NCBI GenBank assembly: GCA_947499635.1
Contig: CANMPD010000011.1
Span: 1-64,000 of the forward strand
DNA: 64,000 nucleotides
Reading direction: 5' to 3'
Source: an uncultured Paracoccaceae bacterium
GTDB lineage: Bacteria > Pseudomonadota > Alphaproteobacteria > Rhodobacterales > Rhodobacteraceae
Positions 11,001-50,528 of this stretch are shown here, one piece after another. Numbering within the stretch: the first letter of the stretch is position 1; every line of letters begins with the position of its first letter. The position numbers and the translations under genes are program-made. A model generated the notes under the pieces. It was not told where the DNA came from. It searched no databases and saw only the letters and a list, made by a program, of their open reading frames with translations.

Positions 11001-11117
11001 TGTGGATTGACCCATAGTATTGCCATTTCACATTTATAAACCTTTGAATTCGTTGGGCTCATAATTCCACATTGTGGATCAAATTGCCACTCTTGACCCC
11101 ATAAAACTGCCATTAGA
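11001..11117. mobile_element. Left end of element 1 (LE1) with spaced transposase sites
   Basis: The terminus TGTGGAT is followed by TGACCCATAGTATTGCC (11008-11024). A second clear site is at 11094 (TGACCCCATAAAACTGCC) and a weaker one near 11075 (GGATCAAATTGCC). Wide spacing of same-direction sites is how the Tn7 left end is built, in contrast to the closely packed right end. Confidence 0.8.
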
Positions 11118-11143
11118 GCGCAAATCACAAATTTTGGCCAGTT

Positions 11144-11521
11144 CTAGTCCACTCTGGGTCTTCCCTGCCCTTCAATAACATCGATCGCCTTCAGCATGGA
11201 TTGGAGTTCTACTCGAACCAAATCAAGACGTGTAAAGGCATGCGCCTCTTTGCGCCCCGCAAGAGCTAGCACCGCCGAAAGCACGGCGTCGGAGTTCCGC
11301 ATCAGTTCGATTAAGTGTTCTCCTGCCGGAGCATGCGTACCTGAAACCCAGTTTCTTGCGGTCCTCTCGCTAACCCCGGTCCATCGCATGGTCGTCTTGG
11401 CCGCCTGATGAGTCCGACCCAACTCATTCGTCAGCGCACTCCAAATAGCCTCACGGTATTCTAACTGCGAATTCAACTTACTGCTGTCGTTTTGAAAAGT
11501 GTTGCCTGTTTTAGGAAACAT
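11144..11521 (-). CDS. HTH-type regulator of the serine recombinase module
   Basis: 125 residues. The central part (AAKTTMRWTGVSERTARNWV then GTHAPAGEHLIELM) is a helix-turn-helix segment of a type I associate with mobile-element regulators; the rest is helical. It is divergent from the recombinase gene at 11611, 89 bp away, so it probably controls that promoter region. It is the gene nearest the left end of element 1. I do not recognise a named family. Confidence 0.6.
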   Translation of the reverse strand: MFPKTGNTFQNDSSKLNSQLEYREAIWSALTNELGRTHQAAKTTMRWTGVSERTARNWVSGTHAPAGEHLIELMRNSDAVLSAVLALAGRKEAHAFTRLDLVRVELQSMLKAIDVIEGQGRPRVD

Positions 11522-11610
11522 GTTGCCGCCCTTCCTCTGTTAAAAGTGAAACAAGGAATCGCAGACGATCTGCCCAGATTTTAGAAATTGAACGAAGGAG
11601 AACCTTAACA

Positions 11611-13176
11611 TTGAGTTCGTCAGGTAGTGATCAAGGCACGAGCAGTAACCGAAAAATGCGCAAAGCAGCGCGGTATGTCCGCATGTCGACAGATCATCAA
11701 CGCTACTCTACCGAAAACCAGTCCGACGCTATTTCGCGTTACGCTATAGAACGCGGCTATGAGATCATTGAAACCTATTCCGATGCGGGCAAAAGCGGCC
11801 TTCGGATTGAAGGTCGCGATGGTCTATCGCAATTACTCGAAGACATTCAGGTCGGCCAAACCAACTTCCGAACCGTTCTTGTTTACGATATAAGCCGTTG
11901 GGGCCGGTTTCAGGATGCTGACGAAAGCGCGTACTACGAGTACATCTGCAAACGTGCTGGCATCACCGTCGAGTATTGCGCCGAGCAATTTGAAAACGAC
12001 GGCAGCCCCGTTTCTACGATTGTAAAAGGCGTAAAACGCGCGATGGCGGGCGAGTACAGCCGTGAGTTATCGCAGAAGGTTTTTGCCGGACAGTCTCGGT
12101 TGATTGAAATGGGCTTTCGACAAGGCGGACCTCCTGGTTTTGGCTTGCGGCGTATGTTGATTGACGAGATGGGCAACCAGAAAGGTGTTCTGGCCAGAGG
12201 TGAGCATAAAAGCATTCAAACCGATCGCGTCACGCTTGTCCCGGGCCCAGACGAAGAAATCGCAGTTGTGAACCAAATCTTCCACAGCTTTGTAGAGGAC
12301 CATCAATCCGAAGCAACGATCGCAGCCGAGTTAAACGGGAGAGGCATCAAAACCGATCTCAATCGAGACTGGACACCGTCCGTGGTCCGCCAGCTTCTTT
12401 CGAACGAAAAGTACATTGGCAACAACATATGGAATCGCAATTCGTTCAAGTTGAAGAAACGGCATGTACGCAACACCCCAGACAACTGGGTTCGATCCGA
12501 AGGCGCGTTTGAAGCGATTGTGGATGCTGGACTGTTTGCCGCCGCGAAGGCCATTTTTACTGCTAAAGCAAAACGATACTCTGATGAAGAAATGCTGGAT
12601 GGATTGCGAGACGCACTCCAAACACATGGTTTTCTATCTGGCTTCGTCATCAACGAAGCCAGTGCCTTACCGTCCAGCGGCGCTTACCAAAGCAGGTTTG
12701 GTAGCTTACTGAGGGCTTACAAACTGGTCGGCTTCACACCCGACAGAGATTATCGATACATCGAGATCAACAAACGCCTGCGGAAGATCCACGCCGAGAT
12801 TGTCGAAAATACCACCCATGGCATCGAGCATGTGGGTGGGCACATTCATCAAGATGGGAAGACCGGCCTACTGTCCATCAATCATGAATTTTCTGCATCT
12901 GTCATCATTGCGAGATGTACGCAAACCGGTGCCGGTGCGTATCGATGGAACATTCGATTGGATACCAGTCTAGTACCCGACATCACGGTCGTCGTGCGCA
13001 TGGATCAAGCAAACGAAACGCCACTCGACTATTATCTGCTACCAACAGCAGACATGACACTGCCAAAACTGCGACTGTCGGAAAACAACGGTTTGTCGCT
13101 TGATGCTTACCGATACGATGACCTCACACATTTTTTTAACATGTGCGCGCGCACTTCAATCTTAGAGGTCGCATGA
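11611..13176 (+). CDS. Large serine recombinase
   Basis: 521 residues from a TTG with AAGGAG at 11595-11600; an in-frame ATG at 11656 would start just before the resolvase fold. The N-terminal resolvase domain has ARYVRMSTDHQ, whose Ser is the expected nucleophile, followed by VYDISRWGRF and YSRELSQKV around the helix-E region. A recombinase domain follows (EEIAVVNQIFHSFV, LLSNEKYIGN) and then a C-terminal region of about 200 residues. Such enzymes cut and join DNA at two short sites. It heads an operon with two ParB-like genes, each overlapping the previous one by 4 bp. It may integrate cargo, resolve cointegrates or invert DNA. Confidence 0.88.
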   Translation: MSSSGSDQGTSSNRKMRKAARYVRMSTDHQRYSTENQSDAISRYAIERGYEIIETYSDAGKSGLRIEGRDGLSQLLEDIQVGQTNFRTVLVYDISRWGRFQDADESAYYEYICKRAGITVEYCAEQFENDGSPVSTIVKGVKRAMAGEYSRELSQKVFAGQSRLIEMGFRQGGPPGFGLRRMLIDEMGNQKGVLARGEHKSIQTDRVTLVPGPDEEIAVVNQIFHSFVEDHQSEATIAAELNGRGIKTDLNRDWTPSVVRQLLSNEKYIGNNIWNRNSFKLKKRHVRNTPDNWVRSEGAFEAIVDAGLFAAAKAIFTAKAKRYSDEEMLDGLRDALQTHGFLSGFVINEASALPSSGAYQSRFGSLLRAYKLVGFTPDRDYRYIEINKRLRKIHAEIVENTTHGIEHVGGHIHQDGKTGLLSINHEFSASVIIARCTQTGAGAYRWNIRLDTSLVPDITVVVRMDQANETPLDYYLLPTADMTLPKLRLSENNGLSLDAYRYDDLTHFFNMCARTSILEVA

Positions 13177-14075
13177 TGTCTGATGCCCCCCAAGAGCACA
13201 CGGAACTTATATCCGTTGATGCGATCACCGTGATTAATCCGCGTATTCGCAATCAAAAAGTCTTTGATGAAATCGTCGCCAATATCGCTGAACTTGGCCT
13301 GAAACGTCCAATCACTGTTGCGGCTCGCATGGAGGAAGAGAGCGGTGATCTGTCATATGAGCTGGTTTGTGGCCAAGGCCGATTGGAAGCCTTCAAAATC
13401 CTGAAACAAGAAAAGATCCCAGCTGTCGTCATCACCGCGAGTTCTGAGGATTGCCTCGTGATGAGTTTGGTCGAGAACCTGGCACGTAGGCAGCATCACT
13501 CACTTGATTTATTGAGAGACATCAAACGCCTTAAAGAAAGTGGATATACCGAGCGGGAGATCGCTGCAAAAACACAGTTTTCGGCCAAATATGTGCACGG
13601 CGTCATTCGACTATTGGAAAGCCGTGAGCACAGGTTGTTGCGCGCCGTCGAAAGTGGAAAGATCCCTGTGAGTGTCGCCGTTGATATCGCCGAAGCTGAT
13701 GATGTCGGTGTGCAGGCAGTCTTGCGCCAAGCCTATGAGAGTAAGGTATTACGAGGCGGTCGCTTGATGGCCGCAAAGCGATTGGTGGAAGCGCGCAGAA
13801 ATTTCGGCAAGGGGCGTCTCACATCAGACAACCGAACCCGCAAAAACCTTTCAGTCGAAACCTTGCTCAGAACGTATCAGAACGATGTAGAAAAGAAGAA
13901 GATCCTACTTCGCAAAGCTGGAGCAACACGCAGCGAGATGCTGTTCTTGACCCATTCCTTGAAAACGCTGTTTTCAGACGAGAACTTTGTCACCCTGTTG
14001 CGCGCCGAAGGTCTATCCAACATTCCCAAAACCATCGCAGATCGATTGACCCGCATTGATGGAGCCATGACATGA
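13173..14075 (+). CDS. ParB/RepB-like protein 1
   Basis: 300 residues from the ATG at 13173, which overlaps the recombinase stop (ATGA) and has GAGG just upstream. The ParB N-terminal fold is visible: LISVDAITVINPRIRNQ, then a CGQGRLEAFKIL segment at the place of the GERR nucleotide box, then SLVENLARRQHHSLDLL matching the ENxxR motif. A helix-turn-helix region (YTEREIAAKTQFSAKYVHGV) follows. ParB proteins bind DNA sites and, in many cases, CTP. There is no ParA partner nearby, so a classical partition role is doubtful; it more likely works with the recombinase. Confidence 0.8.
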   Translation: MMSDAPQEHTELISVDAITVINPRIRNQKVFDEIVANIAELGLKRPITVAARMEEESGDLSYELVCGQGRLEAFKILKQEKIPAVVITASSEDCLVMSLVENLARRQHHSLDLLRDIKRLKESGYTEREIAAKTQFSAKYVHGVIRLLESREHRLLRAVESGKIPVSVAVDIAEADDVGVQAVLRQAYESKVLRGGRLMAAKRLVEARRNFGKGRLTSDNRTRKNLSVETLLRTYQNDVEKKKILLRKAGATRSEMLFLTHSLKTLFSDENFVTLLRAEGLSNIPKTIADRLTRIDGAMT

Positions 14076-14971
14076 CATCCGAACGCCAGGAACAGGTCGT
14101 TGCAGCTGCATTCGAGCGCGATCTGTTACGTATCGCGTTCGATCAAATCGCTCCTTTGTATGTGGTTAACCCCCAAACAAAGGAGACTGTTAAATTCAAA
14201 CGCATTGTAGCGTCTATTCAAGAGATTGGGCTTGTTGAACCGATTGTGGTTTCCCGAGACGTGAAGGACCCCAAGCACTTTACGCTTCTTGATGGGCATC
14301 TTCGCCTTGAAATACTGAAAGACCAAGGGGCGACGGACACACAGTGCATCATATCGACTGACGATGAGGCCTTCACTTACAACAAGAGGATCAGCAGGCT
14401 TGCGACCATCCAAGAACACAAGATGATTTTGCGCGCCTTGACCCTTGGTGCGTCCGAAGAGCGTTTAGCCAAGGCATTGAATGTGAACATCAGAACACTT
14501 CAGGAAAAAAGACGCCTGCTTGACGGCATTTGCCCCGAGGCTGCAGAGATGTTGAAGGATAAGCAGGTTGCTTTGACCGGGTTTCAAATCCTCAAGAAGA
14601 TGAAGCCTATGCGCCAGATAGAAGCCGCTCAGTTGATGGTAACGATGAACAAATACACCATCAACTACGCGCGGTCATTGTTGGCTGCCACGCCAGATAA
14701 CCAACTGATTGCAGGTGCAGCGCCCAAGAAGTTCACGGGCATATCTCGGGAGCAGCTAGATCTGATGGAAAAGGAATCTGCCAACCTTGAGCGAGAAGTC
14801 CGTTTGGTTGAAGACAGCTATGGCGCTGATCATCTCGATCTCATTTTGGCGCGTGGCTACGTCAGTAGATTGGTGAGCAATGAGCGGGTCACCAGATATC
14901 TTGCGTTGCATCATGAAGAATTTTTGCCTGAATTTGAGAAGATTACAGAACGAGAAGCATTCACGTCTTAA
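14072..14971 (+). CDS. ParB/RepB-like protein 2
   Basis: 299 residues, starting 4 bp inside the end of ParB-like protein 1. The N-terminal part has the ParB layout (VEPIVVSRDVKDPKHFTLLD then GHLRLEILKDQG), but the ENxxR motif seen in its partner is missing. The C-terminal half (LKDKQVALTGFQILKKMKPM, RQIEAAQLMVTM) resembles the RepB C-terminal domain of alphaproteobacterial plasmid partition proteins. The pair probably forms a heteromeric DNA-binding complex with the recombinase upstream. Function not known. Confidence 0.75.
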   Translation: MTSERQEQVVAAAFERDLLRIAFDQIAPLYVVNPQTKETVKFKRIVASIQEIGLVEPIVVSRDVKDPKHFTLLDGHLRLEILKDQGATDTQCIISTDDEAFTYNKRISRLATIQEHKMILRALTLGASEERLAKALNVNIRTLQEKRRLLDGICPEAAEMLKDKQVALTGFQILKKMKPMRQIEAAQLMVTMNKYTINYARSLLAATPDNQLIAGAAPKKFTGISREQLDLMEKESANLEREVRLVEDSYGADHLDLILARGYVSRLVSNERVTRYLALHHEEFLPEFEKITEREAFTS

Positions 14972-15102
14972 GCTGTGCGATAGGTGAGATTGAATTTGGG
15001 GACCCGGACCCATTAAGCGCGGGGACCACAGGAGACGCCGCACTGTGGGGCGGATCAAGTGTGGTGGTGGGGATGGCGGCGATCCCGCTTGGGCCCATCA
15101 TG

Positions 15103-15119
15103 CCGGACCTTTTGTCCGG
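15103..15119 (+). terminator. Small hairpin after the recombinase-ParB operon
   Basis: CCGGAC (15103-15108) and GTCCGG (15114-15119) form a perfect 6-bp stem with a 5-nt loop, 130 bp after the last stop of the operon. There is no T-run directly after it, so its terminator role is uncertain. The surrounding 14972-15252 holds no gene that I can support. Confidence 0.25.
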
Positions 15120-15252
15120 TCACCTTACTCCAAAAACCGTCTGCGTGTGCTTTTAAATTTCGGAGGCATGCGCAGACAACCCTTGGCTGAAATCATCCAT
15201 CGCAACGAACCAAGAACGTCTGGTAACGGGTGTTATGTAAAGCGCCTTCCGG

Positions 15253-15513
15253 TTGAAAGCTGTAGCCGAAGTGGGCTTCGGTCGTGTACCGTATTTCAAA
15301 CAAAATGCTGACCATCAAACGGGGGAAATCCCAATCGCAGACTTTGAAAAAGAATATGCATTCGCGGGCGACAAGAACGCGCAGTTTCAACTCATCAAAG
15401 AAGCGTTCCAAAGCGGAGATGAGCAAAAATTCGAACAAGCGCTTCGTACAGTTCTTGATGCAAGAGACAGTCTTCGTCGTGGCATTCTCGACATGTTAAG
15501 AGACGTATATTGA
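15253..15513 (+). CDS. Small protein of unknown function next to tniQ of element 1
   Basis: 86 codons from a TTG with no good ribosome-binding sequence, so the start is uncertain. The C-terminal half (FQLIKEAFQSGDEQKFEQAL, then RTVLDARDSLRRGIL) is like the 60-residue protein at 35727-35909, which sits at the equivalent place beside tniQ of element 2. Both have a GDE(x)2FE segment at the same distance from an Ala/Leu helix, reminiscent of the first helices of HigA-like antitoxins, but no complete DNA-binding domain is visible. Convergent with tniQ. Confidence 0.4.
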   Translation: MKAVAEVGFGRVPYFKQNADHQTGEIPIADFEKEYAFAGDKNAQFQLIKEAFQSGDEQKFEQALRTVLDARDSLRRGILDMLRDVY

Positions 15514-15533
15514 TTTCGACCCACTGCATGGCA

Positions 15534-17369
15534 CTATGCATACAGTGTTCGCTTTAGGGCACCAAGCGCTTGATCGCGAATGTAGATGCTGCCAATCCCG
15601 CCGCTTGGCATGGTCAGCTTCTCAACCCCTAAGCTCTTCAGCTTTGCTATGATGGTCGGTGGTTTCAGACCAAATAGCACGCCGAGTTCTTTTGCAGGAG
15701 CATAGGTATCCAAGAACTGATCGAGGCTGTCTTGCGTAACGACGGAAGCGGCCTTTCTAGTTCTTGGGTTCCGCGATTTTGACGCCTGAATGTAACCCTC
15801 TTCGATCAGAAACTTGATACCTGGATCGTTGACACCCAAAAGTGCCTTGAGATTTGCTTTGCTGAACCCCTCGATGCCGACGCCGTCAAGCAGTGAGGCA
15901 AGTTCCTGAATATCAACACGAAGCGAAAGATAACCGGTGACACCACTTACTTTCCCTAAAGATCCGCACTTATTGTTGATGATCAGCTGAATGACCTCTG
16001 CTGCCCCGCAAACCAGCTGTCGACAAGCAGTTGGTATATCGACCATCTCCTGTGAAAAATGCTCAACCGGAACCGCATTACGCATCATATCGGAAAGCAG
16101 CTTGCCTGCAGCCTTTGACGAATAATGGGGAGTGATCTCCCCTAGCCCTACGATCGGCGTGACGAGTCCCGCTTCACAAACTGCATCAAACTGTGCCCGA
16201 GGGATGTTGAGCAGCTTGCTCGTCGCCAATCTTGTCAGGCCATCATTAAGATCGTTCATCAGTCCTTCTGATTTGATCGCAGAGAACGTTCCAGGTTCTT
16301 TGATTGCACCGGTTCGTGGATCCAATGTCAGAAACCCATGCTCCACCAACGCCGCGCGGACGCGCTGACCGGACATTTTGCACTCCGTTTGGAACGAACC
16401 GAAACTGTGTACGCGACGGGTCTCAACTTCTTCGCCAAACACCGTTTCTCCAGCACCAATTGGGAAACTGTTGACGATATAGTGCCGGATTGCATCTTTG
16501 ATGGGCCGGTATTCTGGCTGGCGCGCCGACCGGCTGAGCCAATGATAAAGAGGTCCAAGATGACCTTGCGCCTTTTCGAGCAAGCCGGGTTTAGGCAAGT
16601 CTTCTCTAAGCGCCTGATAGACCCTTTTTGGCCCCAATCTTGCAATCTGAAAACCAACATGCCCCGCTATGTTGCGCTGGATGTTGGTAAGGCTTTGTAC
16701 TTTGCAGGCAGAACCAAACTCGAACAACACGCCAAGCAACTCACAAAACTGGGTCACGGCGTTTAGCTCGATTCCGTCGAGCCAAACGCTCGTTGCATTT
16801 CCCAACACTCGTGCTTCGATGTAGCGTCCGAGCTCTGAAGGCACGATCTGCTTGAGGGATACAGCGTTATCTTGAATATCAAATCGGTTGCGTAGGATGC
16901 GGTTTGTAAAGTCGTGCTGCAACCCCCAATCACGCTCCGGTGCCAAGTCAACAAGTGGGACACTGTGCATCCCGCAGTCGCGCAGAAACGCCATATGCCA
17001 ATAGGCTTTCCCAACGGGTCCACCATCTTCACCAAAACCCTCTAGATCCTCAAGAATGCAATGAGGACAAAATCTGATTTTGGTGCGCAGAATCCATCGC
17101 GTTTCCACGAGTTGACCGGCGACGCGATATTGCTTGTTTTCTTGCCTGCACACGGCAAATCGCCGCATTTCTTCTCGTTCAACACCCCCGAGTGCTGCAA
17201 GTTGTGACAATGGATCTAGGCCGCCGTTCGCCAAGCCACCCAAGTCAATTCCAAAGTTCGCAAAAAAGTCAGTCAGGCGCTGGCCATTTAGATAGGCAAT
17301 TCTTGCGCCATAAGATGTTGGGGTTTCGCCGAAGCGCAGATCCGTTCGAATGGGTAACGGGCCAATCAT
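15534..17369 (-). CDS. tniQ: TniQ/TnsD-type target-selection protein of element 1
   Basis: 611 residues from the ATG at 17369, which overlaps the tnsC stop by 4 bp. The N-terminus (PIRTDLRFGETPTSYGARIA) and the zinc-binding block (FCPHCILEDLEG, then YWHMAFLRDCGMHSVPLVDL) are typical of TniQ. The protein is longer than short TniQ proteins (about 300-400 residues) and similar to or longer than TnsD, which recognises a fixed chromosomal site. As the only TniQ-family protein of the element, it is the candidate for recognising the nrdJ 3' end. It is the last gene of the minus-strand tns operon. Confidence 0.85.
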   Translation of the reverse strand: MIGPLPIRTDLRFGETPTSYGARIAYLNGQRLTDFFANFGIDLGGLANGGLDPLSQLAALGGVEREEMRRFAVCRQENKQYRVAGQLVETRWILRTKIRFCPHCILEDLEGFGEDGGPVGKAYWHMAFLRDCGMHSVPLVDLAPERDWGLQHDFTNRILRNRFDIQDNAVSLKQIVPSELGRYIEARVLGNATSVWLDGIELNAVTQFCELLGVLFEFGSACKVQSLTNIQRNIAGHVGFQIARLGPKRVYQALREDLPKPGLLEKAQGHLGPLYHWLSRSARQPEYRPIKDAIRHYIVNSFPIGAGETVFGEEVETRRVHSFGSFQTECKMSGQRVRAALVEHGFLTLDPRTGAIKEPGTFSAIKSEGLMNDLNDGLTRLATSKLLNIPRAQFDAVCEAGLVTPIVGLGEITPHYSSKAAGKLLSDMMRNAVPVEHFSQEMVDIPTACRQLVCGAAEVIQLIINNKCGSLGKVSGVTGYLSLRVDIQELASLLDGVGIEGFSKANLKALLGVNDPGIKFLIEEGYIQASKSRNPRTRKAASVVTQDSLDQFLDTYAPAKELGVLFGLKPPTIIAKLKSLGVEKLTMPSGGIGSIYIRDQALGALKRTLYA

Positions 17370-18382
17370 GAGCCAGTCTTCTTCCACCGGGCCAGCGCAC
17401 GTTGCAAGGCAATCCGCGTTAAACTGTTCTCATCTTCCTTTGTTTGCGCCCTAACGCCAATGTCGCGGAAGTCAGGGGCTAGGAACGGATTCAAACCATC
17501 CAAGCAATTGAAGTTTCGGCGAGCGTACTGAGCAAAGTGGTTTCGTGTTAGAGTCTCATCACCCACGCGCAAACATGGCCGAATTGATTCCACAACGAAT
17601 TTGAATGCCAAACCCGGCTTGTGTTGCGCCGCATGGAATAGACGCAAACCGAAATCTTGACCCCTAAGGTCATCCGAAACAGCCAGACCAGCTTTTGCTG
17701 CAAGGTACTCTACGATCCCAGGGATGTTTTCCCCGTCCTGAGCCCAGGATAGTTTAGGGATTTCAATGATTTCTTTCCTGCGGTTCACCTCGCCGTTCAA
17801 GGCGACCAGCTCTGTGAGTTCTGGGGTTCCGGCCAACAGCAAATTCACAGGCCATTTGATGCTGTTGAGAAGTGATTTGAGCGTACTCAACGCGGTCAGG
17901 ATTTCGCGCCCTTGATGATTGAAAATCAGATCATGGGTTTCATCAATTATGAGAAACTTGACCCGGCGTTGCCGAAACTGAGTTTCAATCTGATCCCAGA
18001 TGTCAAACTGGTTGCTTCCCTTCGTGTATGGGTGTTCCAGTTCCCCAAGGATCTGCTTTCCAATGTTGAGTACCGTGGTCGTTGAAGGCGCGCGCACTCG
18101 CACAACATCCAAATAACGATCATTTTTATCTGACCTGATTTCGGGAACGAACTTCGTTAGTCGTTTTGTCATTTGAGTTTTGCCGCTGCCCGGTGGGCCC
18201 GTCAGTATGATCGCAGTGCACTCGGAGTCATTCCCTTCCTTGAGGTCGGCAACACGCTGGGAGTGTAAATCTAAGAACTGTTCCCGAAGCTGCAGATAGG
18301 TCGGTGTTTCAACGAAAACCGTCTTCAGTTTGGCGATTGTATCTGCTGTCTCTTGAATGGTTTTGGGGTCACGTTCAGTCAT
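17366..18382 (-). CDS. tniB: TniB/TnsC-type AAA+ ATPase of element 1
   Basis: 338 residues from the ATG at 18382, chosen because it overlaps the tnsB stop (18375) by 8 bp exactly as in element 2. Walker A is ILTGPPGSGKTQM and Walker B is FLIIDETHDLI, with a sensor-like LLLAGTPEL segment. TnsC/TniB polymerises on target DNA, links the target-selecting TniQ to the TnsA/TnsB transposase, and mediates target immunity. It has the same length as its counterpart in element 2 although the sequences are clearly diverged. Confidence 0.9.
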   Translation of the reverse strand: MTERDPKTIQETADTIAKLKTVFVETPTYLQLREQFLDLHSQRVADLKEGNDSECTAIILTGPPGSGKTQMTKRLTKFVPEIRSDKNDRYLDVVRVRAPSTTTVLNIGKQILGELEHPYTKGSNQFDIWDQIETQFRQRRVKFLIIDETHDLIFNHQGREILTALSTLKSLLNSIKWPVNLLLAGTPELTELVALNGEVNRRKEIIEIPKLSWAQDGENIPGIVEYLAAKAGLAVSDDLRGQDFGLRLFHAAQHKPGLAFKFVVESIRPCLRVGDETLTRNHFAQYARRNFNCLDGLNPFLAPDFRDIGVRAQTKEDENSLTRIALQRALARWKKTGS

Positions 18383-20567
18383 CTGCAATACCCCACCCTT
18401 TACCGGATTTTGGTGGCTTTGAGATTTCTTCCGTGCCCAGGTCAGGTGTTCTGAGCGGCGTTACATCGTCGGCAGGAAGAGCGATCGGTTCAATAACGTC
18501 AGACAACAGTCCAGTATCTCCTGGAACAGATGGTGTGTCCTTGTCTCCTCTTTGAATGCTGAAGCCGTAAAACACGGATTTTTTGTCATATTCGATGTCA
18601 TCGGAAGAAGTTTCCTCCATGCCGAATCCTGCACGTCGCCTTCCAAAGTCATCCATATCCTGTATTTTACGAATGCCACGCCGGACAACCGGTAGACTTA
18701 GTTCGGATTCAGCACGATTGCTTTGAACAAGTTCTTTGAATTCACGCTTCCAGTCTTCATATGGGATGTTCTCAAAACCAGGTGTGGCGCAAATTGCGAG
18801 GTAAGGCTTCTTTTCGTACCAAACCGTTACATGGCCCAAATCAGCCGGATCGATGCGTATCTCAACTTCTGCATCCGCGACATCTAGCGAAATTTGTTTA
18901 AGTTTGTCACAATAGTAGTCAAGCGCCGCAAACCTTACCTGGCCACCCGAGACCTTGCACTTTGTTGGAATTCCGACGACAGCAGTACGCGTCAGATGTG
19001 GCACTTCGGCAGGGTACCCAAACTCCTCACACAACTTCTTCCAAGTATTTGCTGGGGTAGCGCCATTGAGACCAGAGTGAGGAGAATTATGGTATACGTC
19101 CGCGATGAAAATCGCCATTGCACCGGTTAATTCATCATCCGTGAGAACGGCTTCACTCTTCGGATCCGCATTGCCTTTCTCGACTACGTTGGAATGTGTC
19201 CTTGCGGAAAGAAGTGGCATGAATCCAGTTGTGAAAGAGTTAAATATACGTTCCACGTATGGCCGATAAATTGGAAGGCCGCCCACCTCGGTTCGAAGAT
19301 TACTCCCCAGGTCCTCGACCGCTCGCCGAAATCGAGCAGCAACAAACGGCGGGCCGTTGTCGCAAACGATCATTCCGGGCCGCCCATAAAAATCCCATCT
19401 ACTTTCTGCGCCGTATGATTGAGCAAATTCTGTCTTGTCCCGCAGGATTTGGTCCAACACGGCTATTGAATTGGAAGAGTGTGGTCTGGCCGAAACCTTA
19501 ACCCCAAGGACAACGCGGGTCGCACAATCAATCGCAAGCGTAATGGTCCGCCTTTCTCTGGGAACCTTGGCTAGTTGGTCTTTGGTAAGGACATTTGCCA
19601 AGCCGGTCTTAACAGCGAGAGTAAACACATCGCCTTCCCAGTCATCGATTTCCACTCTTTGGAGCGGATAAAGCACGTCAAAGCCATCCTCGCGAAGTCC
19701 GAAATCCAAATTTGCTACTTCAGGTCCATAGGCTTTAACGGACCTGTGGTACGGTGATATCTTCTTCACGTACTTGGGAATGGTCCAATAGCTTGGAACG
19801 ACCAACAGACTTTCACCTTCTGCAGCACGGCGGTCATTCTCATAGGCGAACTCGTCAAGTACCAAATTAGCCACCTTAAACGGCTTTGCCCGCTTAGCGT
19901 TTAGGTGCTTCATGATCATTTGGTTCATGAATTGGTAGGTTTCTTGTGGAAATCGAAGCGTTCGGTTGCCGCAGTTCTCGGTTAATGGACGCAAAGCCTT
20001 TGCGGAACCTTCATTGCAGCGGTACGCTTTCAGCAAATCTCGAAACCTACGAGGTCCAGGTATCTCAAAATTCCATGGATTTGGATTGGCTGTGCAATCC
20101 TTATCTCGGGCTTCCGGCTTATGCGCACCGCCGCGTTTTTTGCGTCCATCCGGAATCTTGTCACGCATCTCTAACAGTGCGTGCTTTTCAATTTGTTGTA
20201 GCGTTTCCTTTATTGCCGGGTCAGTGATCTTTGTGCGCCGTGCATCATATTCCACCATGAACAAGCGGCAGAGCGATTGGTACCATAGCCCCGTTTCTCC
20301 AGAATACTCACTCGCTGTCAGCAGCAAAGCGTCGCGCCCGGAGGCGCGAAGCTCTTCTCGTTCTGGTGCGAAGTGGTCTGGTATCAAATTCCAGTCGGCG
20401 GATTGCATGAACTTCGCGATTTCAGCATATGTCAAAAACACTTTCACATTTGCGAGGTCCAAACGGATGAACTCGCCACCCAGGTCATTTTTGCGATGCA
20501 ACCTGTATTCAATCCCATTGAAGATATAGAGATCAAGCATCCGGAGAAAAATCTTGCGAGCCGTCAT
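18375..20567 (-). CDS. tniA: TniA/TnsB-type DDE transposase of element 1
   Basis: 730 residues from the ATG at 20567, which overlaps the tnsA stop (ATGA). The integrase-core acidic residues are in VEIDDWEGDV (about 310), MIVCDNGPPF (about 405) and YRPYVERIFN (about 440), in proper D-D-E order. An N-terminal helical DNA-binding region precedes them and a Mu-transposase-like C-terminal barrel follows (VPHLTRTAVVGIPTKCKV). It binds the element ends and joins 3' ends to the target with a 5-bp stagger, in agreement with the observed duplication. Confidence 0.92.
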   Translation of the reverse strand: MTARKIFLRMLDLYIFNGIEYRLHRKNDLGGEFIRLDLANVKVFLTYAEIAKFMQSADWNLIPDHFAPEREELRASGRDALLLTASEYSGETGLWYQSLCRLFMVEYDARRTKITDPAIKETLQQIEKHALLEMRDKIPDGRKKRGGAHKPEARDKDCTANPNPWNFEIPGPRRFRDLLKAYRCNEGSAKALRPLTENCGNRTLRFPQETYQFMNQMIMKHLNAKRAKPFKVANLVLDEFAYENDRRAAEGESLLVVPSYWTIPKYVKKISPYHRSVKAYGPEVANLDFGLREDGFDVLYPLQRVEIDDWEGDVFTLAVKTGLANVLTKDQLAKVPRERRTITLAIDCATRVVLGVKVSARPHSSNSIAVLDQILRDKTEFAQSYGAESRWDFYGRPGMIVCDNGPPFVAARFRRAVEDLGSNLRTEVGGLPIYRPYVERIFNSFTTGFMPLLSARTHSNVVEKGNADPKSEAVLTDDELTGAMAIFIADVYHNSPHSGLNGATPANTWKKLCEEFGYPAEVPHLTRTAVVGIPTKCKVSGGQVRFAALDYYCDKLKQISLDVADAEVEIRIDPADLGHVTVWYEKKPYLAICATPGFENIPYEDWKREFKELVQSNRAESELSLPVVRRGIRKIQDMDDFGRRRAGFGMEETSSDDIEYDKKSVFYGFSIQRGDKDTPSVPGDTGLLSDVIEPIALPADDVTPLRTPDLGTEEISKPPKSGKGWGIADD

Positions 20568-21268
20568 GAGCAAGCCAACCGAACTTGGCTAGACGAACAA
20601 ATACGCCCCGGAGAAACTAGTTGTAGCATGCCTCCAAATAACTGTCGGACAACGGCTCGGAACATTGCTCCACCGTGCCCACTTAAGGCCACGATGCTTG
20701 CTATTGTCATGGTACCAATGAGATCTTCTGAAATTGACAACAAGCGTTTGTCAGCTTCGGGATCCTGATCTTTGGAAAAATCGACGAACATTGCAGCGTT
20801 AAAAATCTGCACACGTGTAAAGGACCGGTCCGTGACTAAACACACTCTGTCTGCAAAAGATGACGGCATTTGACCCGCAATAACAGACAGTGTTTCTCGG
20901 AAGTCCGAATTTATGACACGGTCAAATGGCTTGACTGCAACCGCTGTCTTCTTGCCGTCGCTGTGTTCCAACAGCAGGTCAAACGTATGGTGACGTTTCT
21001 TACCCCGCTTATCGATGAAAGAGATGCGTTCGGGCTGCGGAATGACCGACACAATGTCTGGGCTCGCCAATGCCAACTGCGAGGTAAAGAATTCCGGGCC
21101 GCTCTCTGACACCAACCTACGAAGATGCTCATCACTTGGCATATATGCCGTATGATACACTCGGGCGCTCTTCTTGGACCTAGCCGGGGGCATTCTTGAT
21201 GCCAAACATTCCAGAGGTGGCTGATAGATAGGTTCTTGGCTTGTGGATTGCTCGATGGGTGACTGCAT
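20564..21268 (-). CDS. tnsA: TnsA-like endonuclease of element 1
   Basis: 234 residues from the ATG at 21268, chosen because AAAGGCGG lies a few bases upstream; the open frame extends 30 codons further without similarity. The N-terminal part has ESGPEFFTSQLALASPDIV and VIPQPERISF, then HHTFDLLLEHSDGKKTAVAV followed by KPFD. The Asp of TFD and the Lys of VAVK fit the catalytic D and K of the TnsA restriction-enzyme-like fold; the usual Gln two before Lys is Ala. TnsA cuts the 5' strands so that the element moves by cut and paste. Its presence separates this element from the Tn5053/Tn402 group, which lacks TnsA. Confidence 0.82.
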   Translation of the reverse strand: MQSPIEQSTSQEPIYQPPLECLASRMPPARSKKSARVYHTAYMPSDEHLRRLVSESGPEFFTSQLALASPDIVSVIPQPERISFIDKRGKKRHHTFDLLLEHSDGKKTAVAVKPFDRVINSDFRETLSVIAGQMPSSFADRVCLVTDRSFTRVQIFNAAMFVDFSKDQDPEADKRLLSISEDLIGTMTIASIVALSGHGGAMFRAVVRQLFGGMLQLVSPGRICSSSQVRLACS

Positions 21269-21440
21269 TTTGTTGCCGCCTTTTTGCTGTAGTTGAGCGC
21301 ATCGCGACCCAACGCTGGCCGCGAAGCACTTGACTTTTTTCGCTAAAAGAAGGAACAACGACTCAGCTTAGAGGGACTTGTTCCTTCAAAAATGGGGAAG
21401 ACCTAGCGTACCAGCGCTAGGTTTTCTTCGTTTTCGGGAA

Positions 21441-21671
21441 CTACATTTCCTTAACCTCCAGATATCTTTCTGGGAAGAGTGCCTCGGGGCTCGTCTCCAA
21501 GATTGCCGCCAAGTGGGATTGGATCTTGTGACTTCGCCTAAATCCTTGCGACACAAGAGTGACCGACGTTGGCGAGATTTCCAAAAATTCTGCCGCCTTC
21601 GCCAATGAGCTGCCTCGCTTACGTAAGGAGCATTTTAGATTTTCATGTCGCTCTAGGTCTGGTGTCAGCAT
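21441..21671 (-). CDS. Ner-like HTH regulator of the element 1 tns operon
   Basis: 76 residues from the ATG at 21671 (a TTG three codons earlier is also possible). The sequence ENLKCSLRKRGSSLAKAAEF, then ETSPEALFPERY, fits the Ner/Nlp family, whose Mu member represses early phage transcription; the P-x-x-(L/I)-(F/W)-P-x-R-Y ending is the hallmark. It is the first gene in the direction of the tns operon, about 170 bp before tnsA, so it probably represses transposition. Two palindromes lie just upstream of its start. Element 2 has an equivalent gene at the same place. Confidence 0.75.
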   Translation of the reverse strand: MLTPDLERHENLKCSLRKRGSSLAKAAEFLEISPTSVTLVSQGFRRSHKIQSHLAAILETSPEALFPERYLEVKEM

Positions 21672-21676
21672 TGGAT

Positions 21677-21727
21677 CCAAATTAGCTAATAATTTGGACT
21701 AACTTTAAGGAACGGTGACCTTAAAGT
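21677..21727. promoter_or_regulatory. Double palindrome upstream of the Ner-like gene
   Basis: Two perfect inverted repeats stand side by side: CCAAATTA (21677-21684) with TAATTTGG (21690-21697), spacer 5, and ACTTTAAGG (21702-21710) with CCTTAAAGT (21719-21727), spacer 8. The first lies 5 bp upstream of the start codon of the Ner-like gene, so a protein bound there would block initiation. They are candidate autoregulatory operators. Confidence 0.5.
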
Positions 21728-22148
21728 CAAAACTATTATATTGCAATATCAATGACTTAATTCACAGTCAGTAATAGATTCGATATTTAACTTAGGAGCG
21801 CATGTGAGAGCCACCTGATCGGCGTATTGTTCCGCACGCCAACCGGTGCGGATTGTGTGAATTCGCTGCTCCGCAGCGAGAATTTTCAACGCTTGCGAAA
21901 GCGGACACTTGGCACGACGAGCCGAGGGAAGTCCTGTTTTGGGGCAGTTCTTCAGGAAAGCGGACATTTTCTGCGTTGAAACATAGCCGATCACCAGGTT
22001 CTTATAAGCAGTCATTCCGATCCAATGGTCGCGTCAGAACACCATGCTGACCAGACGGCGACTTCGTAGTTGCGACGATCCTAAGGTCTAAATGTGCCCT
22101 CGCGATAATCGAGCACCGCATGTCCCAAAAATTCTCGGTCCGAAGGGT
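21728..22148. other. Region without a supported gene
   Basis: This AT-rich stretch between the divergent-facing regulatory region and the broken STAND gene has only short open frames without family patterns, including an 88-codon minus-strand frame at 21749-22015 that I do not believe. It probably holds the promoter of the Ner-tns operon at its left edge and worn-out sequence in the remainder. Confidence 0.45.
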
Positions 22149-23952
22149 TTAATGTAAAGCAAAAGTCTCTTTCTTCCTGGCAGTTTTGGCTTCGTCAACA
22201 GTACTCGCGATGACCTTTAGATTGGTACGCAGATCTACACCGGCAGTTCTCAATTGCTGAACACCGTCGTTTGTAAGTCGTACAAACTGCCCGTTTCCAT
22301 ACATCTCGGCCTCATAGGAAGGCTGATGGCTGAAAGTTCCGTCGACCCAAGCGATTGTTTCGCAGACTAATTTGCCCTTATTGTCAAAAAGCTCCAGAGG
22401 GCGTTCCGGGTTTCTTGTCCAGCCTAGCCGCTGAGCCATATAGGGGCATAATGTCATCGTCTCGTCCCGCATACTTCCAAACATAGTGCCTGGGACTCAG
22501 CACACTAGTGCGCTGTCCTTTTCGTCGTACAGCGGCTGAGGCTCGTCTCGAGAAAACAATTTTGGTGAACCCTCTAAACCAGCTTCGATATTGGCCAAGA
22601 TCGGCAGGCGAAGTTTGTCTATTGACGATGTCACTCGAGAGGCACTCAGCGAAAAATGTGTTTCCTCTGCCAAAATATAACCGGCATTTGAGAAGCTTGA
22701 TGTCATTAGTTGGCTGGGATCGTTTACCCACGTTTCACTATCGACGCCGCCGTACTCTTTTACTGGCATTTGCGGCCAATCGAGCCAATCCGGTCTTGGA
22801 TGAGGCTCTGGCAACAAAATGGTGCTTGGGCCACCAATTTCTTCCCAGATTAGTGGTATCACTCTTGAATCGATAGCGCCTGACGTCGACAATTCATCTA
22901 TCAGTTTTCCGACGGCTCTGAGCGCTGCGTTGGCCATTGGCCGCCTATAGGGGAACGCCAGATCGAGGGAGCGCAATTTGGAGAGCATTTGCTTTTCTAC
23001 GTCCGGACCGAATGCAGATTTGCCACCTTCTTCGGTCATAAATATGGCACACCTTCGGCGCAGCAGTTCTAAAGGGATGCCCGAAGCTTTGTGCACAAGG
23101 TTCAGTTGGAATTGGAGCACTGAAGTCCACGTCCAAGGGTCGTCAGACCACATTGCCCGCCCATCTGATAGCAAACCAGGAGGCGGGTCAAAATTCGACG
23201 CCTGCGAACCACCCAAAGGCTGCAAACTATAGAATGCAGGGAGATCTGTTTGCGGCGCTTCCGGGATTTCTTCACCCAGTTCGTAGGATCCTTTTTGATA
23301 ACGCCGTAGTAACGTAGTCCGATTTAGCAAGCAGATCTCTGGCCTCATCGACTAGGGATTTCCTCAGCTGATGTTGATCAGCTAGACGTGAAGCTAATGC
23401 AGCTGCTTCTCTATTTCCGTCGAGGAGAGGATGCAGAAACTCAAAAACTTTTTCGAGCACTTCAGGATCACTAGCGATGCTTGCAACGTCTGCCACAGCC
23501 TCACGCGCATGTAGAGTGACTTCTGGGCAGCCCAAGCTGAAGCTTTGTGCTATAAGGAAGGCAAGAAGGTGGGATGCATTGTCTACGGCTGCGTTCTTCG
23601 AAACAGGCGCTGCCAATTGGAATTCTCTATAGTTTTCTAAGTGATTTTGGGTTTCATTCCAATATTCGAAAGTTGGAATTTCATTGGAAACCAACTCCAA
23701 TACCTCATCCAAATTGATGAACAGTGATCCCGCATCTGTTGCCCCTCGCGCGAGCTCGCTTGTGAGCGCGTCAAAGGCAATATCCGCCGCACTCTCAGGA
23801 GAAAACTCTGCAATCAGCCGTTGCACTTCTAGCTTCTCGCCCCCCATGAAGCTTGACCAGTGACCAGTGACCAGTGACCAGTGACCAGTGACCGTTGACA
23901 GATGCTTGCCTGGCCTTTTCCAAGTATGTTTCAGCCAGAGGGCGCTTGCCAC
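22149..23952 (-). pseudogene. C-terminal part of the broken nuclease-STAND protein
   Basis: Three pieces continue the STAND protein encoded at 23795-28165. The first (to 23272) starts after the heptamer repeat and reads GGEKLEVQRLIAEFSPESAA and onward as a helical domain. The second (22497-23348, 283 codons) is in another frame; a shift of one deleted or two inserted bases near 23300 would join them (around a TTLLRRYQKGSYELGEEIP segment). The third (22149-22484) is in the same frame as the second but separated by a TGA at 22497-22499; it reads LGWTRNPERPLELFDNKGKL and AWVDGTFSH. Together with the N-terminal piece the original protein would be about 2000 residues. Confidence 0.65.
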
Positions 23953-33615: not shown

Positions 33616-34069
33616 TCAGAACAAGGACCGATCCTCATCCGGATTCGTCGGCCCATCCATCCGGGCTTGGAGCTCACTGAGCGGGTTATTGCTAATTTTA
33701 CAAACGAGTTACATCTCGCGCTGAAAAAGGCTCAATCTGGCCGTCATCTTCGCGCCGTCAAGCGATCTTATGCTCAAATGTTGGGCGAGTCATTTGATGG
33801 GTTGCCTCATGTGTTGGGCTCTACCTAGTGTCCCAACTATTGGATGAGCCGTCATGATCAGCGGTGATTTCATTTGGTTATCTATTTGAAAATAAACTGG
33901 TAAATCTCGATTTGCGCAAATTGAGATGCGATAGATTTCTGGCTGGGTGCTCCTGGCCAGACCAAAAAAGATGGGCTGTCTTTAAGCCAATGGCGCGAAG
34001 CAGATCTCATCAAATGAAATAGGGTTTGGGACAAGCCTGAGCCCGCAAAAATACCAAAAGGAGACTACC
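33616..34069. other. Intergenic region upstream of the CAP-domain gene
   Basis: No complete gene. A plus-strand frame without start, about 33664-33831, reads ELTERVIANFTNELHLALKK and SYAQMLGESFDGLPHVLG before a stop; it looks like protein code and may be a gene remnant that I cannot name. The palindrome at 33904-33927 is listed separately. Confidence 0.4.
33904..33927. promoter_or_regulatory. Near-perfect 24-bp palindrome upstream of the CAP-domain gene
   Basis: ATCTC, g, ATTTGC and its complement GCAAAT, t, GAGAT form an uninterrupted palindrome with one mismatched pair, 143 bp upstream of the gene at 34070. A dimeric regulator could bind here; nothing else supports it. Confidence 0.35.
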
Positions 34070-41861: not shown

Positions 41862-42146
41862 TTACGGAACCCCAGAAACTTTGCCGTTCTGAACCTCCTT
41901 TTGTTGATTTTCGTGCTGTAAATGGTCCGGATTGTCATCATAGCGCGATGGCCAGATGGTTGCCGGATCTTCGCCTAGTTTTGAAGCTATAGCCGATTGA
42001 ATTCGCTTACTTTTTATCACACCGGAGCAGCAATTTGAAACGGCCCCGGTATTGATTTTAAGTTCTTCGGCGATGCTACTAAAGCTATGCCCGAGCAGCC
42101 TGAGCCGGTACTTCAGATTTTCTCTCAGGGCTACTTCTTTTTGCAT
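41862..42146 (-). CDS. Ner-like HTH regulator of the element 2 tns operon
   Basis: 94 residues. ENLKYRLRLLGHSFSSIAEE, then KLGEDPATIWPSRYDDN, fits the Ner/Nlp family with the P-x-x-IWPSRY ending even clearer than in element 1. It is the first gene in front of tnsA2, about 180 bp away. A short palindrome, GTATGA-CT-TCATAC at 42174-42187, is 28 bp upstream of its start. Probable repressor of transposition. Confidence 0.78.
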   Translation of the reverse strand: MQKEVALRENLKYRLRLLGHSFSSIAEELKINTGAVSNCCSGVIKSKRIQSAIASKLGEDPATIWPSRYDDNPDHLQHENQQKEVQNGKVSGVP

Positions 42147-42173
42147 CGCTTCGACACCAAACCGCTAGATATA

Positions 42174-42187
42174 GTATGACTTCATAC
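42174..42187. promoter_or_regulatory. Short palindrome upstream of the element 2 Ner-like gene
   Basis: GTATGA and TCATAC are perfect 6-bp arms with a CT spacer. By analogy with the double palindrome at 21677-21727 in element 1 it may be the operator of the Ner-like protein, but the two sequences are different. Confidence 0.3.
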
Positions 42188-42512
42188 CGAATCTCTAAGC
42201 GAGTGATTCTCAGCTTGCAAGAGTCTCGATTCGCCAATCGCACAGCATTCGCCACCATAGTGAGCCTGGCCCTGTTCGTTCAAAAAATTCTTTTATTTCA
42301 GCCTCTTTGTGAATTTCGCAAAGGTAGTTTCTATATTTAACTTAAGAAAATTCCTGAAACTCCAATGAAACCTTACTGATAAAATCCGGAGTGCGTTCTA
42401 ATGTTAAATTGGGGCCAGCGAGTACTCATATCGTAATTCATAGCGACCCAATGCAAAAATGCTGCTCGAATGAAGTTAAATCATCCAAATGTGCGACAAT
42501 TCGCCACACAAC
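42188..42512. other. Region without a supported gene
   Basis: AT-rich spacer between the Ner-like gene and the frameshifted nuclease-like gene. Only short open frames are present and none has a pattern that I recognise. Confidence 0.45.
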
Positions 42513-44050
42513 TCAAACTCTACTGATCAGATCGGGATCGAGGAGGATGGAGACGCCCTGTTCTTCTGCCTGCTTCCGACCATAAGCTTTGAGGTCGCTC
42601 TCCCGCGTCCCGACATCCAGTGCATCGAAACTCACAGAGCGAAATGTCAAAGGCTGATCCGGGCGACGTTTAAGCGTCACAAGAACGCTGTAAGTGATCT
42701 CAGCACCGCCGAGCGTGCAGGCGTTGAAATAGACGCCGGTTAGTTCGTCGCCTAATGCCTCGTCTTGGACATCGAACTCCATGTACCCTCGGGGTTCTGC
42801 TTCGAGCATGAGGCCAACAGCCAGTTGGGCATCAAGATTTTCCCTTGCCTCAGAAATGCTGAAGCCTTCCTTGGCGATGGTGCCTGCCTGACGCACCAAA
42901 CGTTGCCATCCCTCAAGAAAGTCCCGGAGCCGCGGTAAATCTTCAATATCCGGGCCGCTAAGTTCATCGGAGACAGGGAAATTGGCTGTTTCGCCGGATA
43001 CTAAGGTTATGGATAGTTGGCCCCGACCGTCTGCGAGGTGGGAAAGTCCACGTAGCAGCGTACACCACCGATCGAGCGGGCGCAGCGCATCGCCGAAGAC
43101 ATGCGCAGTTTCAAATTGAAGCCCGTCCTTTTCGATGACAATAGCGAAGTCCTGATGTTTCAGAAGAGCAATTGGGCCGCCGAGATCCGGTGGAGCAACA
43201 TGCGCCTCAACCTCAAACACCGCCGCCTCGTCCAACACATCTGGGCCTTTCATTGAGACACGCCAAACGCCTGCTGATGGTGGCGTCATCTTAATTTGTT
43301 CGAGTTCGTCAAAAAGTTGTCCGTTGTAGGGGATCGGAATCCCAAAACGCGCGTCGAACACACTGAGGCCTGATGCGTTGATCGGCTCCAAGCCCAACCA
43401 GATGCGCGCCAGCTGACCCTCTTTATCAACTTTAAGGTATATTGACCAACAAGCTCTGCGTCCTCATAGCCCAGCTCTCGCAGCTGCCGCTGTTTCTCAG
43501 CGACATATGCGGTCGGGTCGTCGCCAACGGCTTTTTGGAGGGCGTCGCGCAACCCCTCCGCTGTAAGCTGAAACTCATGCCCGTTGGACTGATAATCAAA
43601 GGTCATACTCTTTGATGCTAGATCATAGTCACCCCTGGCTTCGGCTTGACGCAAGCGCCGCAAGACGCGCGCCAGGTTCTCGTCGAAAATAGAAATGACG
43701 TAGCCGCGTTTTGGCTCGCCGTCCGTGTGCAATCTGAACACCACCAGCAATGAAGGTCCCGGAAGCTTGGCAAATGGCTCAAACGTCGAGAGCTTCGCCT
43801 TGACCGTGCGCCCCTTCTTCTGAGCCGTAGATTTCAGCTGAACGTAACAAGACCATTCGGTCCGCTGATCGAGCGGCCTGCCAATATCTGAGGTCTCTCC
43901 CGCCTCCTGAACGAAAAAGTCCCAGCCCTTTTGATCTCGCTCACTGGAGTTGACGATCAGTCGAGCGGATGTTGCGAGTGCCGCAAACATGCTTTCTCCA
44001 ACAGCCCCCAACTCATCTGAGGTCAACTTCTGTCGCTTAGATTTTGGCAA
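42513..44050 (-). pseudogene. Frameshifted DUF4365-like nuclease-domain protein
   Basis: Two overlapping frames make one protein of about 510 residues. The N-terminal frame (44050 to about 43440) starts SKRQKLTSDELGAVGESMFA and has DQKGWDFFVQEAG and CYVQLKSTAQKKG, the D...QxK pattern of a PD-(D/E)XK fold as in DUF4365 proteins of defence loci. The second frame (to 42513) continues smoothly if one base is added near 43440: VGQY, then LKVDKEGQLARIWLGLEPIN and PIPYNGQLFDELEQIKM. The DNA between 43286 and 43397 is open in both frames. Either the gene is inactive or the sequence lacks a base here. First cargo gene after the tns operon. Confidence 0.65.
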
Positions 44051-48819: not shown

Positions 48820-49380
48820 CTAGTCTGCCCCATGTTCAACATCCCCCCAGTGCTTGTTTGGTGGCAATTTCGTTGCCCGCCGCGCGATATCGACAAAGGT
48901 GACTGGCATGAAGTTCCACACATCAACGCCAACATTCACGGAATTGCGCGACCCGCGCCAGTTGTCGTGAACGTGACCGAAGAACTGCAGTGCGCCTCGA
49001 CGGGCGTGGTTCCAAGTAATCATTGGGTAGTGGCTAAGTGTGTTGAGTTGGTTTTGCGGCCCGTCTCGAAGCTCTGCGAAATGGGAAACTGAATCCCAGG
49101 GTAGCTCCAGTGTTGGCTTGTGATCGTGGTTGCCAATAACCAGATGACGTTCTGCACCCGGCAACTGGTTGAAAATGTGCTCTACGTAAACGCTGTCCTT
49201 AGCCTTGGTGCCAAAGGCAAAGTCACCCAGAATCCAAAGCTGGTCTTCCGGGCCAACCACCTTCCACATATTTTCCAACATCGCAGCATCCATCTGTGAT
49301 GCCGACACGAAGGGGCGGTTACAAAATCGCAAGATATTTTCATGGCCGAAATGCGTGTCGGCTGTATACCAGATTGTCAT
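48820..49380 (-). CDS. Metallophosphoesterase, element 2 cargo
   Basis: 186 residues with the full motif set DTHFGH, GDFAFG, IGNHDHK, SHYPMITW and GHVHDNW. It is clearly homologous to the protein at 28436-28957 in element 1 and both end with a RNSVNVGVD(V/Q)W segment followed by a basic tail. It lies on the minus strand, convergent with the nuclease-domain gene, close to the right end of element 2. The substrate is unknown. Confidence 0.83.
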   Translation of the reverse strand: MTIWYTADTHFGHENILRFCNRPFVSASQMDAAMLENMWKVVGPEDQLWILGDFAFGTKAKDSVYVEHIFNQLPGAERHLVIGNHDHKPTLELPWDSVSHFAELRDGPQNQLNTLSHYPMITWNHARRGALQFFGHVHDNWRGSRNSVNVGVDVWNFMPVTFVDIARRATKLPPNKHWGDVEHGAD

Positions 49381-49975: not shown

Positions 49976-50018
49976 ATGAGATTACTGGAAGTGTCCGAAG
50001 CATCTTACGGGCACTCAA

Positions 50019-50276
50019 TTGACCAAAACACTTCACACCAATGGACATTTGGCGCTCATCGAAGCGCTCATTTCTGCCCGTAAGTCACAAAAGCTCTCTC
50101 AGGCGGTCTTGGCAGAACGGTTGAAGTGTCATCAATCGTTCGTCGCGCGGATCGAGTCAGGTCAGCGGCGTATTGATGTACCCGAATTGGTGATCATTGC
50201 GCGGGCGCTCGATGTTCCAGCGGAACACTTCTTCGATGCAGTCATTAAAGCTGTACCGCCTGGCGAGCGAATTTAA
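50019..50276 (+). CDS. Xre-family HTH regulator
   Basis: 85 residues from a TTG; the start signal is weak. A standard five-helix Xre/Cro domain: ALISARKSQKLSQAVLAERL, then KCHQSFVARIESGQRRIDVP and ELVIIARALDVPAEHFF. It is the last gene before the right end of element 2 and probably regulates cargo or itself through the octamers upstream. Confidence 0.8.
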   Translation: MTKTLHTNGHLALIEALISARKSQKLSQAVLAERLKCHQSFVARIESGQRRIDVPELVIIARALDVPAEHFFDAVIKAVPPGERI

Positions 50277-50430
50277 GACTCTGATTTCGTTGACCAATCA
50301 CGAATACCACAAGGGGTTTGTACAGCTTTGAGTGTGACCAAAGCATAACTATTCGCGCTCAAAAACTCCCTCAAACCCCGTACTCAACATAGCGACGACT
50401 TTACCCCGAAAACATCGGTGTTAAGCCGCC

Positions 50431-50501
50431 TAATGTACAACCTATGTGTAGATAATGGACCCGAGTTAGAACGAAATGGGCAAACTATGGGTCACTTCAC
50501 A
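50431..50501. mobile_element. Right end of element 2 (RE2)
   Basis: Read inward from 50501 on the minus strand: TGTGAAG, then TGACCCATAGTTTGCCCATT (50494 to 50475), then the block with TACACATAG (50462 to 50431) that is shared with the left end. The terminal ACA is at 50499-50501 and CCAAT follows. Confidence 0.88.
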
Positions 50502-50528
50502 CCAATTCACAAAATGCGCCAATTTACA
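50502..50528. other. Attachment region between the stacked elements and nrdJ
   Basis: Order: CCAAT (right duplication of element 2), TCACA (last five bases of element 1), AAATG (right duplication of element 1), then CGCCAATTTACA up to the nrdJ stop codon at 50529-50531. This stretch records the order of insertion: solitary end first, then element 1, then element 2. Confidence 0.88.

Follow-up and report, generated by a model that had tools for sequence, protein, structure and literature searches.

How does one complete Tn7-like transposon come to lie 10 bp inside the end of another? The question is raised by a 64,000-nt stretch of DNA from an uncultured Paracoccaceae bacterium (contig CANMPD010000011.1, positions 1 to 64,000; hereafter the window), in which two such transposons, termed here the outer and the inner element, lie beside the 3′ end of nrdJ. 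We put the probability at roughly 0.85 that a single attachment site downstream of nrdJ is common to these two complete elements and to a third one represented by its right end, and that the inner element lands about 10 bp further from the gene than the others.

Borders of the two elements

The inner element occupies positions 29098-50501 (21,404 bp) between two copies of CCAAT (29093-29097 and 50502-50506). Its left terminus reads TGTAAAATGACCCATAG from 29098 and its right terminus, inward from 50501, reads TGTGAAGTGACCCATAG; the two ends form 28-bp inverted repeats (93%). It is located 10 bp inside the right end of the outer element, within the terminal TnsB-type site of that end, and is the later of the two insertions. 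The outer element comprises 11001-29092 plus 50507-50511, a total of 18,102 bp counting one CCAAT, and is bordered by AAATG at 10996-11000 and 50512-50516. From 11001 its left terminus reads TGTGGATTGACCCATAG and, once the inner element is removed, its right terminus reads TGTGAATTGGCCCATAG inward from 50511. A preliminary description, made from the letters alone, had proposed a Tn7-like transposon within a Tn7-like transposon with exactly these borders, and a restored right terminus ending at 50511. The letters that it quoted are all present, each element has its own tnsA-tnsB-tnsC-tniQ set, and the independent copies described below bear out both the borders and the fused junction.

All four termini of the outer and inner elements have TGT, four bases and then a TnsB-type site, as had also been proposed. 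The first site is at +8 and the second at +19/20, and the right ends have an additional third site at about +40. The exact motif TGTN4TGACCCATAG has three matches in the window, which are the three unbroken termini. With three mismatches allowed, 13 matches were found in the window against a mean of 11.4 in shuffled sequence, which is no better than chance. As such a loose scan fails to separate ends from chance, the case rests on the exact termini, the duplications and the independent copies. With the termini taken as fixed, the chance of each 5-bp duplication match is about 0.0009.

The outer left end is directly abutted by a solitary end, the right end of a third type of Tn7-like element. 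The type also occurs at nrdJ in genome G192; the solitary end resembles the right ends at nrdJ there and in G020, and is identical at 81 of 91 aligned positions to the resident right end that an inner-type element interrupts in G486.

Copies in other genomes

A relative carrying the outer element alone had been named as a check on the predicted junction, and was found in Epibacterium ulvae 4A10 (G007; the window's own genome is G000), a congener placed by NCBI in the family Roseobacteraceae. Here an outer-type element of 20,836 bp, with GCTTT on both sides, follows nrdJ without the inner element, and its TnsA, TnsB, TnsC and TniQ are 91-96% identical to the outer set of the window. Along the joined window sequence, homology continues across the predicted fusion of the right end (query 1-897, 900 columns, 87%), and the junction equals the predicted fusion. 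The cargo of this element is Avs2 and Gabija (GajA, GajB) in place of the Avs1b-like set of the window, and a second Tn7-like element stands in tandem behind it.

The inner type is found nested in two other genera. In G367, homology to the inner element ends exactly at 29098, the right end lies 26 nt after the nrdJ stop, and GAAAT is found at both ends. Beyond the left end, the sequence matches the start of the second element of G007 at 88% identity over 1,389 columns, and this copy therefore also interrupts a resident right end. G486 contains a complete 19.56-kb copy with CGTAC on both sides, on one 1.6-Mb contig, and joining its flanks yields a solitary-type right end. Nesting is thus seen in all three inner-type copies with both junctions readable, at 10 bp (G000), 9 bp (G367) and 11 bp (G486) inside the resident, and the resident ends that were hit are of three different types. 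No inner left end was detected in the sequence available from G259 (100 kb), G404 (53 kb), G458 (60 kb), G476 and G473 (about 14 kb each), G448 (3 kb) and G334 (1.2 kb).

The nrdJ site and the distance from its stop codon

The NrdJ C-terminus was detected in 341 of 384 genomes of the family. Tn7-like ends were scored as a TGT between 8 and 30 nt from the stop together with at least two spaced TnsB-type motifs, a rule devised after the first flanks had been viewed and one that fails to pick up inner-type ends, including that of the window; by this rule they were present in 25 of 94 nrdJ flanks against 69 of 13,800 random positions. The flanks came in three batches of 27 (family only), 27 and 40. 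Left out were G269 (too short), a second G022 row and L030-L032 (other families, no end seen), while G367, G404 and G334 were kept out as selected for other reasons. Among 32 regions of 3-60 kb adjacent to nrdJ, 11 had at least one tns or tniQ gene, and a twelfth, that of G234, had only a weak TnsB fragment. Solitary ends seem common at this site. The other ends at nrdJ may be remnants, may belong to longer elements, or may come from different transposon families whose ends have similar arrays. Downstream of nrdJ in G020, G241, G259, G380 and G404, Tn7-like right ends or similar arrays were seen with no tns genes in the 20-100 kb available.

Inner-type right ends were found in five of the 384 family genomes and in six of 334 relatives of G334; G334 belongs to both sets, giving ten genomes. 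All ten ends are at nrdJ, at 27, 26, 25, 26, 26, 25, 27, 25, 26 and 25 nt after its stop. Another 22 right ends at nrdJ, taken by a single rule, range from 13 to 25 nt with a mean of 18.8 nt, and the outer type is found at 17 nt (G000) and 16 nt (G007).

In a tree of 29 TniQ rows, 13 of them at nrdJ, the nrdJ label requires four changes against a mean of 9.7 for shuffled labels, and none of 500 shuffles was as low. The rows were chosen by hand with short matches omitted (such as G010:C97, G016:C9 and G030), and, because of contig breaks, rows without the label may still be at nrdJ. The outer and inner elements, G367, G007 (two), G004 (two) and G013 form a cluster of eight with modest support (85/85), every member of which is at nrdJ. 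Searches of open-licence papers, supplements aside, gave no description of nrdJ as a site for Tn7-like elements, and the stem ribonucleo is absent from the main texts of PMC8649781 and PMC10293859. The site directly downstream of nrdJ is a Tn7-like hotspot, newly described here.

Explanations for the nesting

The most likely cause of the nesting is a single shared site read with a 10-bp offset: the inner and outer elements both use the nrdJ 3′ site, which puts the former 10 bp within the right end of the latter. A solitary-type element arrived first, its right end lying 16 nt from the nrdJ stop. The outer element then inserted at 17 nt, directly beside that end, and lastly the inner element at 27 nt, within the outer terminal TnsB-type site, severing the last 10 bp of its host. 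The inner-type TniQ/TnsD likely reads the same nrdJ 3′ end as the others and directs insertion about 10 bp, or about one turn of DNA, further away. A terminal site split in this manner would stop the resident from moving unless the newcomer leaves precisely, and the outer element can probably no longer move by itself. Target immunity is a property of Tn7; that the resident did not protect its site would be explained by the difference between the transposase sets.

The following observations weigh against this explanation. The 94 flanks are those most similar to the NrdJ of the window, a non-random choice, and many are without tns genes within reach. An empty nrdJ site, which the preliminary description had also asked for, was not found in the same strain or lineage among the relatives. 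The resident in G367 differs from G007 by about 7 nt, lost or gained, near its terminus. Finally, both junctions are readable in just three of the ten inner-type copies, of which that in G367 has its ends split between two contigs.

Alternatively, the inner type might prefer or need an occupied site, being attracted by the terminal TnsB-type site in the right end of an nrdJ resident, with the disabling of residents as its strategy. All three fully readable copies lie inside a resident right end, and a TGT, as at a resident terminus, is found 9-11 nt upstream of 7 of the 10 inner-type ends compared with 3 of 22 others. However, this pattern was spotted on the first five copies (5/5); among the later five, two have the TGT at 9-11 nt and four at 8-12 nt, G458 being without any. 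Moreover, the distance from the nrdJ stop (25-27 nt) is less variable than that from the TGT (8-12 nt), and high occupancy of the site could produce the same picture. Since the distance from nrdJ is the steadier and the TGT pattern is weaker in the later copies, we favour a distance measured from nrdJ over attraction to residents; the latter we regard as rather unlikely. About as unlikely is the idea of a transposon specialised on transposons, whose nrdJ selector is offset by about one turn of DNA; in occupied cells it would then land in the terminal TnsB-type site of the resident, silence it and take over the site, with the resident's cargo captive behind it.

Further explanations were weighed as well. 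Tn7-like elements often contain nested insertions of other mobile elements (PMC8649781), and the inner element could have struck the outer right end by chance; but the ten inner-type right ends all lie at nrdJ within a range of 3 nt, which leaves untargeted insertion very improbable. Misassembly might be favoured by the 28-bp inverted repeats, which could mislead an assembler, yet both elements have exact duplications and the arrangement is present, with other duplications, in G367 and on a single contig of G486, so that an artefact is hardly credible. Random nesting and misassembly were both rejected on this recurrence. Homologous recombination between similar ends could draw on the short sites that the ends have in common, but 5-bp duplications accompany every complete insertion read and the tns sets are only 28-34% identical; joining by this route rather than by transposition is highly unlikely. 

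Transposition genes and class

The tnsA, tnsB, tnsC and tniQ frames are open in both elements, all on the minus strand (Table 1). By TnsA, TnsB, TnsC and TniQ, the ends, the duplications and the fixed place beside nrdJ, both are classed as Tn7-like transposons, and their activity is predicted. The Pfam scan gave no match for the inner TnsA, whose assignment is weak when it is taken alone, and searches of PDB sequences gave no match for the outer TniQ or outer TnsA. As the two tns sets are merely 28-34% identical, neither element is a recent copy of the other.

Both elements resemble Tn7 of E. coli and its TnsD pathway, as presented in the available part of PMC10293859, in having tnsA, tnsB and tnsC with a TniQ/TnsD gene, a duplication of 5 bp, arrays of sites behind TGT termini, and insertion closely downstream of a conserved gene. 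However, that gene is nrdJ here and glmS in Tn7, the tns genes are internal rather than at one end of the element, and no TnsE was seen among the open reading frames (ORFs) scanned. By sequence, the closest solved TnsB and TnsC are those of Tn6677, a type I-F CRISPR-associated transposon. Unlike Tn6677, the present elements show no Cas genes among the scanned ORFs (which are not every ORF), and no Rfam match or CRISPR-like repeats in 11001-50511. RNA-guided targeting was ruled out, as neither Cas genes nor a CRISPR array were seen in this scope. A further TniQ is encoded on another contig of the window's genome (L090, G000:C7:118475-120031); it is 24% identical to the outer TniQ and falls outside the nrdJ group of the tree.

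Cargo and neighbouring genes

The preliminary description had expected exact borders to permit a clean list of cargo for each element, and such lists were drawn up (Table 1). In the large outer protein, residues 264-687 of 1456 alone match Avs1b, at 76.8 bits against an NCBIfam cut-off of 1500; as this match is partial and below the cut-off, the protein is labelled Avs1b-like and not full-length Avs1b. The inner element contains Lamassu, with LmuA and LmuB near full length and LmuC covering profile positions 98-217 of 220.

The serine recombinase and the two ParB/RepB-like genes of the outer element (11611-14971) are 74-90% identical in G007 (L033, L034) and G013 (L038). The tns genes of the G013 element are only 23-29% identical to the outer set, and the trio therefore moves between elements at the nrdJ site. 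A small metallophosphoesterase gene near the right end, reading inward, was seen in the outer and inner elements, twice in G007, and in G004, G259, G476 and G486; beyond the window its coordinates include L033 403-954, L034 2136-2705 and L039 331-843. At 23854-23902, where the ends of the Avs1b-like ORF and a 226-aa ORF overlap, there is a 7-bp repeat of TGACCAG, a tract that could be variable in length.

From the start of the contig to the solitary end (1-10919) lies a cluster with a kinase, an FAD oxidoreductase, DeoR and a TRAP transporter, which is possibly cargo of the third element, or else native chromosome. No left end of that element was recognised in 1-10919; the contig begins at base 1 of the window. 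The gene at 9196-10488 has homologues of only 32-35% identity, in 2 of 17 congeners (E up to 1e-60). A 64-bp stretch of the solitary-end region (10803-10866) is repeated at 92% on another contig (G000:C1:377984-378047).

Table 1. Annotated features of the window, in order of position (aa, amino acids; HTH, helix-turn-helix; PLP, pyridoxal phosphate).
Feature	Coordinates	Strand	Evidence or content
Right end of third element (solitary end), terminus 10996	10920-10996	-	TTGCCAT-type sites at +20, +41, +63
Outer target duplication AAATG, left copy	10996-11000	.	read in sequence
Outer left end with TnsB-type sites	11001-11110	+	terminus identical in G007
Large serine recombinase, outer cargo	11611-13176	+	Pfam Resolvase, Recombinase
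ParB/RepB-like protein, outer cargo	13143-14075	+	family scan
RepB-like protein, outer cargo	14072-14971	+	family scan
Outer TniQ/TnsD, 617 aa	15534-17387	-	Pfam TniQ 4.4e-14
Outer TnsC, 340 aa	17366-18388	-	Pfam TniB/AAA; Tn6677 TnsC 3.6e-07
Outer TnsB, 732 aa	18375-20573	-	Pfam rve, Mu-transpos_C; Tn6677 TnsB 9.5e-26
Outer TnsA, 264 aa	20564-21358	-	Pfam Tn7_TnsA-like_N 3.9e-06, barely past cut-off
Three small ORFs (111, 283, 226 aa), outer	22149-23952	-	no family match
Avs1b-like STAND protein, 1456 aa, outer cargo, phage defence	23795-28165	-	PADLOC Avs1b 1.1e-25
Small metallophosphoesterase closely inside outer right end	28436-28957	-	family scan
Outer right end minus last bases	28990-29092	-	continuous with nrdJ side in G007
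Inner target duplication CCAAT, left copy	29093-29097	.	read in sequence
Inner left end	29098-29190	+	G367 homology ends exactly at 29098
Exonuclease, RNase T/DEDDh type, inner cargo	29365-29937	-	family scan
Inner cargo block, mixed strands	30107-35410	+	GNAT acetyltransferase 30107-30511; PLP enzyme 30693-31880 (-); 280-aa ORF; Lrp regulator 33145-33615; CAP domain protein 34070-35410
Inner TniQ/TnsD, 620 aa	35945-37807	-	Pfam TniQ 1.9e-13
Inner TnsC, 378 aa	37809-38945	-	Pfam TniB
Inner TnsB, 725 aa	38818-40995	-	Tn6677 TnsB 2.7e-23; D, D, E residues aligned
Inner TnsA, 263 aa	40992-41783	-	NF033179 (TnsA-like) 3.9e-06, under its cut-off; 34% identical to outer TnsA
HTH protein (41862-42146), 294-aa ORF, 254-aa DUF4365-like ORF, inner	41862-44050	-	family scan
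Lamassu genes short LmuC, LmuB, LmuA, inner cargo, phage defence	44546-48774	+	PADLOC 9.7e-44, 1.3e-196, 3e-149
Small metallophosphoesterase near inner right end	48820-49380	-	family scan
Inner right end	50440-50501	-	terminus identical at nrdJ in nine other genomes
Inner target duplication CCAAT, right copy, part of outer right end	50502-50506	.	read in sequence
Outer right end, final five bases (TGTGA inward)	50507-50511	-	sequence; G007 comparison
Outer target duplication AAATG, right copy	50512-50516	.	read in sequence
nrdJ, B12-dependent ribonucleotide reductase; 3′ end is the attachment site	50529-52814	-	TIGR02504 3.5e-177; Tn7-like ends after stop in many relatives

Meaning of the shared site

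Stacked insertions of Tn7-like elements at one site are known. Tn7-like elements that carry defence genes and have other mobile elements nested in them are also in print (PMC8649781), and the present elements are like them in having defence genes as cargo and another mobile element inside; in the available part of that paper, however, the nested elements are insertion sequences and a Tn3-family element. With borders exact to the base, the cargo of two Tn7-like elements that carry defence genes can be listed cleanly, and nrdJ is indicated as a much-used landing site for such elements in this bacterial family. The shared site, with its fixed offset, makes it testable what sets the distance from a recognised gene to the point of insertion, and how Tn7-like elements stack, compete and disable each other at one site.

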